Shown here: positions 13,219 to 13,852 of the stretch, in pieces
How positions within the stretch are numbered: position 1 is the stretch's first letter
Layout of the letters: each line of letters begins with the position of its first letter
IMG/VR virus record: IMGVR_UViG_3300047550_004187
Span: 1-30,954 of that record
DNA length: 30,954 bases
Reading direction: 5' to 3' (one strand)
Source of the DNA: a virus
The notes under the pieces: model-generated
Told to the model about the DNA's origin: nothing
Databases searched by the model: none
Seen by the model: only the letters and a program-made list of their open reading frames with translations
Translations under genes and position numbers: made by a program

Positions 13219-13320
13219 TCAAGCAACTTGAGGTTGCTTTGCCATATTCAGTTGTGCATCTTTAAGAAGTTTTTCCTTCTTTGCCTTAACTTTTAGGTAG
13301 CGAACGAAGTAAGTATTCAC
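13219..13320 (-). CDS. 33-residue basic peptide
   Basis: GTG start at 13320 and TGA at 13219. The GTG overlaps the stop of the preceding 54-residue gene (GTGA), and a strong GGGAGG lies 6 nt before it, which supports expression. The peptide is MNTYFVRYLKVKAKKEKLLK followed by DAQLNMAKQPQVA: a short strand and then a basic amphipathic helix. A terminator follows at once. No family known to me; it could be a small regulator or a leader-type product of the riboswitch operon. Confidence 0.65.
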   Translation of the reverse strand: MNTYFVRYLKVKAKKEKLLKDAQLNMAKQPQVA

Positions 13321-13481
13321 TTCACACCTCCCTTGGATTTCTCCATATGAAGTTTGTTTCCATTCTCATCAACATAAAACATAGATCCACGGTAGATTTC
13401 TACATGTGGTTCAATTTTAAATGTTTGATTTGGACGATTTGTGGTATCATACTCGATACCACGATATACAACTTTTGACAT
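13317..13481 (-). CDS. 54-residue peptide controlled by the riboswitch-like leader
   Basis: ATG 13481 with an excellent ribosome-binding site, AAGGAG at 13489-13494 (7 nt spacing). The protein starts MSKVVYRGIEYDTTNRPNQT, continues FKIEPHVEIYRGSMFYVDEN and ends KLHMEKSKGGVK; it looks like a small beta protein (an SH3-like or DUF4278-like small fold is possible, not proven). It lies directly downstream of the structured leader at 13505-13590, matching the known arrangement of Downstream-peptide RNAs before short reading frames in cyanobacteria and cyanophages. It overlaps the 33-residue gene by 4 nt. Confidence 0.78.
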   Translation of the reverse strand: MSKVVYRGIEYDTTNRPNQTFKIEPHVEIYRGSMFYVDENGNKLHMEKSKGGVK

Positions 13482-13504
13482 TAGGTTTCTCCTTAATTGA
13501 AGTT

Positions 13505-13590
13505 AAAGAGCGTTCCTTCAGTCGGCGTTTGCGTTCGCTATTTGCGAATAGCGAATGAACGATCCGTTCCGCGTCGGCTTACTTCCGTCC
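13505..13590 (-). ncRNA. Glutamine-riboswitch-like leader (Downstream-peptide/glnA type), with duplicated or permuted parts
   Basis: This GC-rich, highly structured block stands out from the AT-rich surroundings. On the minus strand it holds, in order: GGACGGAAGTA (13590-13580), GCCGAC, CGTTCAT (13561-13555), a 9-bp hairpin (arms 13547-13555 and 13534-13542, loop of 4), GCCGAC again, and GAAGGAACGC (13519-13510). CGTTC (13561-13557) can pair with GAACG (13515-13511) to form the closing stem. CGTTCA, GACGGAAGTA and GAAGGAACGC are, from memory, hallmark strings of the glnA and Downstream-peptide glutamine riboswitches. The usual order has GACGGAAGTA between the other two; here it comes first. 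The element ends 24 nt before a short gene with a strong ribosome-binding site, so control of translation start is likely. Confidence 0.65.
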
Positions 13591-13599
13591 TATTCAATT

Positions 13600-13803: not shown

Positions 13804-13823
13804 AGGATGAACGGTAGGAGATT

Positions 13824-13852
13824 ATTATACTCCTATTCAAGGTATATAGCAA
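13824..13852 (-). promoter_or_regulatory. Sigma70-type (early) promoter
   Basis: On the minus strand, TTGCTA (13852-13847) and TATAAT (13829-13824) are separated by exactly 17 nt. The -10 box is a perfect match and the -35 box matches 4 of 6. Transcription would start near 13817, 14 nt before the 67-residue gene. It is the best host-type promoter seen in the window. Confidence 0.8.

Follow-up and report, generated by a model that had tools for sequence, protein, structure and literature searches.

A predicted glutamine riboswitch of cyanophages with two nested junctions and small genes enclosed in its P2 loops

The viral DNA analyzed here (the window, a stretch of 30,954 nucleotides from IMG/VR record IMGVR_UViG_3300047550_004187) carries, ahead of a 54-codon gene, strings known from glutamine riboswitches in an altered order, which raises the question of what RNA they form. 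The strings listed in the first-pass annotation all lie on the minus strand, in the order that it gave, and span 13590-13510 (Table 1). A single short string is not significant here (GAAGGAACGC with at most one mismatch is expected 0.5 times by chance in the window); the combination is, because a covariance model built from 57 relatives with the window left out had the element as its sole match in the window (68 bits, E value = 3.7e-17). Our reading, in which we have considerable confidence, is that a composite glutamine riboswitch of a T4-like cyanophage occupies minus-strand positions 13814 to about 13489, with the element at 13590-13510 forming its 3' part.

Table 1. Features of the composite element and its surroundings, in minus-strand order
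Feature	Position	Strand	Basis or remark
Predicted promoter: -35 TTGCTA 13852-13847, 17-nt spacer, -10 TATAAT 13829-13824	13815-13852	-	sequence
C1, 5' strand of outer P1, (C)CGUUC; junction A at 13808	13809-13814	-	CGTTCATCCT before ORF1 in 71/79 homologous loci
P2a 5' strand UCCUAU, includes AU of ORF1 start codon	13802-13807	-	6 perfect pairs with 13593-13588
ORF1, 67 aa, in P2a loop	13600-13803	-	hydrophobic N terminus, two Cys, predicted helix-loop-helix
P2a 3' strand AUAGGA	13588-13593	-	kept despite ORF1 stop shifting by up to 12 nt
String GGACGGAAGTA	13590-13580	-	located in window
Outer linking strand/loop-E segment CGGAAGUA; N1 = G13585	13580-13587	-	N1:b2 covariation
Shared P3 5' strand X, AGCCGACG	13572-13579	-	pairs with 13527-13520; covariation
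String GCCGAC, copy 1	13578-13573	-	located in window
Inner P1: G1 GAACG 13569-13565; loop GAU 13564-13562 (b1 = G13564); C2 CGUUC 13561-13557	13557-13570	-	b1:N2 counts
String CGTTCAT	13561-13555	-	located in window
P2b hairpin UUCGCUAUU-CGCA-AAUAGCGAA	13534-13555	-	compact in window; holds ORF2 in about half of relatives
Inner linking strand CGCAAA; N2 = C13531	13528-13533	-	N2:b1 counts
Shared P3 3' strand Y, CGCCGACU	13520-13527	-	covariation with X
String GCCGAC, copy 2	13526-13521	-	located in window
String GAAGGAACGC	13519-13510	-	located in window
GAAG junction 13519-13516; G2 GAACG (3' strand of outer P1) 13515-13511; b2 = C13510	13510-13519	-	comparison of relatives
Putative expression platform: hairpin CUCUUUAA-CUUCAA-UUAAGGAG with Shine-Dalgarno of 54-codon gene; starts at b2	13489-13510	-	predicted fold
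Downstream 54-aa gene MSKVVYRG..., weakly DUF4278-like	13317-13481	-	Pfam DUF4278 E 8e-4, under its cutoff; PHROG 5049 E 7e-8

A scan of the window with Rfam returned no family above its cutoff. The Rfam glutamine-I and glutamine-II models, RF01739 and RF01704, were both searched, as had been proposed: RF01704, which calls for CGUUC before GGAACGG and a pseudoknot with the following stem, had no match in the window, and its C1:G1 pairing is contradicted by the bases N1 and b1; RF01739, at relaxed thresholds, matched 13563-13507 in standard order at 33.1 bits against a cutoff of 35. Such a standard-order match had been named beforehand as a check on the permuted reading. It is present, but it covers only the last two-thirds, the stretch from C2 to G2 without GGACGGAAGTA, and its strand pairing is contradicted by covariation. 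Two things had been overlooked in the first-pass annotation: this subthreshold match, and the 5' partner of GGACGGAAGTA, which lies beyond the coordinates that it gave.

We located that partner by scanning viral contigs for the upstream block together with the inner block, which gave at least 120 stretches. Most of those listed have CGTTCATCC... directly before GGACGGAAGTA; in the remainder, the window included, the end of a small gene precedes it. This gene starts CGTTCATCCT-ATG and stops just before ATAGGACGGAAGTA in all 36 loci with a full reading, a number that counts the window twice (also as L125). In the window, CCGTTCATCCTATG at 13814-13801 heads the gene: the 5' half of the aptamer, CCGUUC-A-UCCUAUG, overlaps the start codon of the 67-codon ORF1, the 3' half, AUAGGA-CGGAAGUA, stands after its stop codon, and UCCUAU and AUAGGA are fully complementary. 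The upstream copy was thus wrongly thought to have kept just its GGAAGTA half; its 5' half is intact and is set apart by an embedded gene. The same find rules out two other candidates, an aptamer truncated by loss of the 5' half and the partial tandem duplication that had been suggested.

The outer unit compares with RF01739 as follows. Its P1 (CGUUC/GAACG, C1 13813-13809 with G2 13515-13511) closes a three-way junction; P2 follows one A after P1 with the expected UC...GA form (UCCUAU/AUAGGA across ORF1); and the linking strand CG[G/C]AAGUA, the GAAG before GAACG, and the long-range pair (N1:b2, 138/138) are all present. The simple P3 hairpin is replaced by the X:Y P3 capped by a second junction, and the score falls short of the Rfam gathering value (33.1 versus 35). 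The P1 strands are invariant, partly from search anchoring on CGTTC/GAACG, and P1 has no covariation of its own. Sequence comparison makes it very probable that the outer unit is a glutamine-I-type three-way junction whose closing strands are the first CGUUC and the last GAACG. It is not permuted, because its P2 loop is about 210 nt long and holds a whole gene. The permuted order that had been proposed therefore fails for the outer aptamer, whose 5' half lies about 220 nt upstream, and stands for an inner junction, GAACG-GAU-CGUUC-A-P2-CGCAAA, which is circularly permuted and aptamer-like.

Next, we looked at which strands belong together. In the crystal structures of both glutamine-I and glutamine-II, the ligand-binding helix is closed by a long-range pair, whose partners in glutamine-II are base three of the linking strand CG[N] and the base that comes directly after GAACG (PMC6698751). 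We infer that glutamine-I uses the same two positions, which is borne out by the counts in the composite. Across 138 unique composites, N1 (first linking strand) and b2 (the base after the last GAACG) were G:C in 65 and C:G in 73 with no exception, and N2 (second linking strand) and b1 (the base after the first GAACG) were C:G in 136, U:A in 1, and A.G in 1; these are counts of sequences, not of independent events, and N1:b2 may rest on few evolutionary events. N1 was set to G in the first scan only, and b1 and b2 were never fixed. Because N1 matches b2 and N2 matches b1, we assign C1...G2 to the outer aptamer and G1-loop-C2 to the inner unit. The same two pairs rule out a C1:G1/C2:G2 tandem pairing and a glutamine-II-like double pseudoknot.

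The two GCCGAC copies, earlier taken for a duplication remnant, sit on opposite strands of the shared P3 helix. At its end position we counted U:A in 28, G:C in 15, and A:U in 9, and shorter or rearranged variants are also complementary (AGUCG/CGACU and AGUCA(G)ACA/UGUUGACU). The common GCCGAC/GCCGAC form has two A.C mismatches that are A:U or U:A in other lineages; RNAalifold alone did not recover P3, owing to these conserved mismatches. A free hairpin CCG-ACK-CGG inside the first half was rejected, as it leaves the covariation of the two GCCGAC strands unexplained, and when we looked for unusual P1 sequences next to a generic inner hairpin, no case turned up. A single structure is common to about 250 related cyanophage loci, and in it the signature blocks are conserved and covarying, in line with the comparison of related phages that had been asked for. 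Its paired cells reach 94.8%, compared with 84.6 in shuffled controls and at most 55% when the structure is slid by one to three columns, and its covariation score is 0.272 versus 0.093 in shuffles (0/500). When the 338-nt RNA is folded without ligand or tertiary energy, the composite fold (-80.9 kcal/mol) is not the minimum (-88.3 kcal/mol). Comparison of these loci shows a nested structure, and in all likelihood the P3 of an outer glutamine-I aptamer is capped by a second, circularly permuted junction, with P3 shared by both. Both units retain the nucleotides that contact glutamine in the crystal structures: the first C of CGUUC, the G of CG, the C and G of GAACG, and the long-range pair. 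Earlier suggestions of kinship with glutamine riboswitches and of a two-part switch were right in this respect: aptamer blocks and long-range pair are kept, and an outer aptamer is joined to an inner permuted junction. The covarying pairs contradict a simple tandem.

The inner unit G1-loop-C2 has every appearance, from its sequence, of a circular permutation of a glutamine aptamer-like junction. It is without the loop-E/GAAG part (GGAAGUA and GAAG are absent). Its GAU loop can take up insertions as large as an additional hairpin (L479 and L531); such a hairpin, ACCUA..UAGGU, was seen between GGAACG and the second CGUUC in L479, L480, L531, and L532. Either P2, outer or inner, can be a small hairpin or the container of an ORF. 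The P2b strands covary across ORF2 at a distance of about 150 nt (UCU-AUG/AUAGA, UCUC-AUG/AUGGGA, UCACU-AUG/AUAGUGA); the mean duplex energy is -6.9 kcal/mol versus -4.4 for shuffled partners (0/2000), and permuting whole leader groups gives 0/5000. In the compact versions of P2a, each of the four pairs that were counted covaries. With an ORF embedded between them (55 unique pairs), cognate P2a strands pair at -7.0 kcal/mol versus -5.7 for shuffled ones (0/3000); in the second ORF1 family alone, 177/3000 shuffles do as well. P2a is (nearly) invariant in the window's own ORF1 family and without covariation of its own there, and 7 of the 176 12-mers inside ORF1 pair with the P2a 5' strand as well. 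Comparison of relatives thus shows P2 pairing across the genes.

A protein search found ORF1 homologues in 79 loci, of which 70 are fully embedded and six more are truncated by contig ends. The remaining three (L390, L394, L453) have lost the downstream half. In L390 and L394 a terminator-like hairpin follows the ORF1 stop, and the first C of the 5' CGUUC is also lost (CGTTC to AGTTC); these two are natural losses of both aptamer halves together. In L453 the ORF1 start is lost to the contig end. A second ORF1 family is embedded in 80 of 80 loci, with differing P2a sequences. This family, of Prochlorococcus-type phages, often ends in ...IIGRK*, and GGACGCAAGUAA encodes G-R-K-stop. ORF2 (ME.LILTC...IDAKAD*) is present in about half of the loci, after the second CGTTCAT block; UGAAGGAACGC provides its stop codon, UGA, and the linking strand and a P3 strand double as its last codons. 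ORF2 homologues have CGTTCATCT upstream in 80/80 and the full motif on both sides in 73/80. Core aptamer nucleotides thus supply stop codons, UGA for ORF2 and UAA for the second ORF1 family. In one locus (L468), a composite with ORF2, the last GAAGGAACG has decayed to AAAGAAAC.

The ratio dN/dS was 0.37 for the ORF1 family and 0.37, 0.20, 0.14, and 0.24 over the genes compared; other frames had no such signal. These comparative values show purifying selection on the enclosed genes. Neither Pfam nor PHROGs assigned a function to ORF1 or ORF2, and the fold prediction for ORF1 was poor (pLDDT 56, two helices). The ORF1 and ORF2 profiles align over a Cys-helix-loop-helix-Cys segment (hhalign single-comparison E values of 3e-5, 2e-4, and 3e-3; probabilities of 73, 47, and 11%), a hint that a single aptamer carrying a gene in its P2 was duplicated to give both halves.

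Upstream, the -10 element in the window is flanked by an inverted repeat, AGGAG/CTCCT. Many relatives have a TTGACT-like -35, a TATAAT at the same distance, and covarying repeat arms; the arms around the -10 (window 13840-13815, minus strand) change together, as AGGTC/GACCT, TAGAGG/CCTCTA, and TAGGGG/CCCCTA, and reach at least 4 in 101 of 130 loci versus 32 (maximum 43) with shuffled flanks. A hairpin would be expected to covary in this way, a conserved protein site would not. Because the predicted transcript starts just upstream of C1, the leader of ORF1 is very short and without a Shine-Dalgarno, and its start codon overlaps P2a. Downstream, predicted folds pair at least half of the Shine-Dalgarno in 112 of 119 leaders, and the aptamer and the Shine-Dalgarno hairpin overlap by one base only (b2). 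In 224 loci the gene downstream of the RNA is of the YRG type. L649 has such a gene behind a lone canonical glutamine-I aptamer, possibly a simpler state.

Several other RNAs and genes lie nearby. The S-adenosylmethionine decarboxylase gene speD (14282-13956, minus strand) is directly upstream of the element and is adjacent in S-PM2 too. The freshwater-2 RNA (RF02980) matches weakly at 13549-13479 (minus strand, 23.6 bits versus 49.9), a stretch that overlaps both P2b and the 54-codon gene's Shine-Dalgarno, and genuine freshwater-2 matches occur near glutamine aptamers in L624 and L684. There are manA RNAs near composite or single glutamine aptamers in L126 (1139-1324), L129 (220-404), and L624 (2328-2532). 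A scan of host-genome contigs gave mostly chance matches; among the matches listed, the composite was found only in L276, filed as a Prochlorococcus single cell, and L299, filed as a Dehalococcoidia MAG, both probably phage contigs.

As for how such an RNA may work, the kept contact nucleotides suggest that both sites would bind glutamine. Folding of P1/P2 around the start codon would repress the enclosed gene, and a ribosome translating ORF1 would hold the aptamer open. In the bound state N1 would take b2 from the Shine-Dalgarno hairpin, which would favor translation of the 54-codon gene. Glutamine would then turn ORF1 off and the downstream gene on, so that the two genes are switched oppositely. 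Ligand, direction of control, and any cooperativity are proposals of this model, and we put the chance that control runs in the proposed direction at about even. The ON direction rests on the summary in PMC6698751, which cites glutamine-II riboswitches as reported to switch ON. Taken whole, with nested junctions and enclosed genes, the composite reading seems to us highly likely. The wider picture is somewhat better than an even bet: a riboswitch wrapped round the genes that it controls, with two interlocked glutamine sites, one permuted, on a shared helix, P2 sequestering the starts, the stops of many relatives in the core, and translation and sensing mutually exclusive.

In an ordinary tandem, C1:G1 and C2:G2 would close separate aptamers, one after the other; a gene would interrupt the first, and the second, in standard order, would control the 54-codon gene. 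Rfam does read the second part as one standard-order aptamer at 33.1 bits and aligns first or second parts alone in relatives, and tandems of glutamine aptamers are known (PMC2864571; PMC9481103), with true ones in contigs L684 and L710. We nevertheless consider this arrangement very unlikely, since N1 would face b1 (G.G in 65/138) and N2 would face b2 (C.C in 65/138), whereas the nested pairing has no N1:b2 exception; X:Y covariation would be unexplained; and neither half alone has both loop-E strands, which true tandems do, at 48-63 bits each. As an alternative fold of the unbound RNA, the C1:G1/C2:G2 pairing is possible. It is less plausible still, to the point of being nearly discounted, that ORF1 is an unrelated neighbor, flanked by a repeated motif (CGTTCATCCTATG on its 5' side, ATAGGA on its 3' side) whose parts do not pair. 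P2a never varies in the window's ORF1 family, so close relatives add no covariation, which would suit that idea; against it, the second ORF1 family is embedded throughout with other P2a sequences, the pairings of pooled P2a and of P2b across ORF2 (the latter at group level) exceed every permutation, ORF2 and the second ORF1 family have their stop codons within the core, C1 has changed where the 3' half is lost, and the compact form without any ORF keeps the same core.

The composite RNA might also be structured as described while at least one site has lost glutamine or binds another ligand or a protein, the whole being a translational attenuator or operator that couples the enclosed ORFs to the downstream gene. 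The inner unit's missing GGAAGUA and GAAG, and the CGCAAGUA that many outer units carry, speak for this. We think it improbable, though less so than a tandem, given that the contact nucleotides are kept in both units, that the long-range pair is kept by compensation, and that CGG goes with GAACGC, and CGC with GAACGG, in authentic single aptamers of phage contigs too. In viral contigs, authentic glutamine-I aptamers, single or tandem, score 46-63 bits and follow this rule; the composite, preferred here over all of these alternatives, scores near or under the Rfam cutoff, and in S-CREM1, which has the 98-nt compact form, it carries the label of an ordinary glnA riboswitch.

Compared with known systems, the composite shares with glutamine-I (glnA RNA, RF01739) the order CGUUC-A-P2-CGGAAGUA-P3-GAAG-GAACGC of its outer unit, the long-range pair, and the place upstream of small genes; it differs in that its P3 is capped by a second junction, its P2 encloses a gene, and its Rfam score is under the cutoff with strands misassigned. 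With glutamine-II (Downstream-peptide RNA, RF01704) the inner unit shares the CGC linking strand with GGAACGG and a C:G long-range pair, and the composite shares the location before small-peptide genes; however, the inner CGUUC comes after GAACG, a circular permutation, and there is no such pseudoknot. In two relatives, L163 and L126, the first half passes the RF01704 cutoff of 33, with 39.3 and 33.1. As in tandem glutamine riboswitches, two glutamine-aptamer-like units precede one gene, but there the units are complete and in series, as in L684 and L710, whereas the N1:b2 and N2:b1 pairing interlocks the composite units by one shared helix. Coding frames also lie in loops of structured RNA in group I/II introns with loop-embedded ORFs and in tmRNA. 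Those are ribozymes and a translation-rescue RNA, whereas the composite is a predicted ligand-binding aptamer with start and often stop codons as aptamer nucleotides.

Tandem glnA RNAs are mentioned by Weinberg in 2010 (PMC2864571), and a 2022 survey, in its passages on tandems, reports 157 doublets and 4 triplets of glutamine riboswitches, accepted only without an intervening ORF (PMC9481103). Forms with embedded ORFs would escape that survey, because of this rule. A shared P3, permutation, and enclosed genes are absent from the accounts of tandems in these two sources. The portions of a 2023 paper that deal with natural RNA permutations list ribozymes, 5S rRNA, introns, and others, with no riboswitch among them (PMC10085705). 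Our literature search, which was not exhaustive, found no published riboswitch that is naturally circularly permuted, and none with a coding sequence inside its aptamer.

The composite RNA escapes standard covariance searches or is misassigned by them. Because of this, and because the tandem survey set aside intervening ORFs, a family spread over many marine and freshwater cyanophages has been known only in pieces. With the composite, competition between translation and ligand sensing for shared nucleotides can be put to the test, and the RNA gives a hint of how cyanophages may react to the nitrogen state of their hosts.
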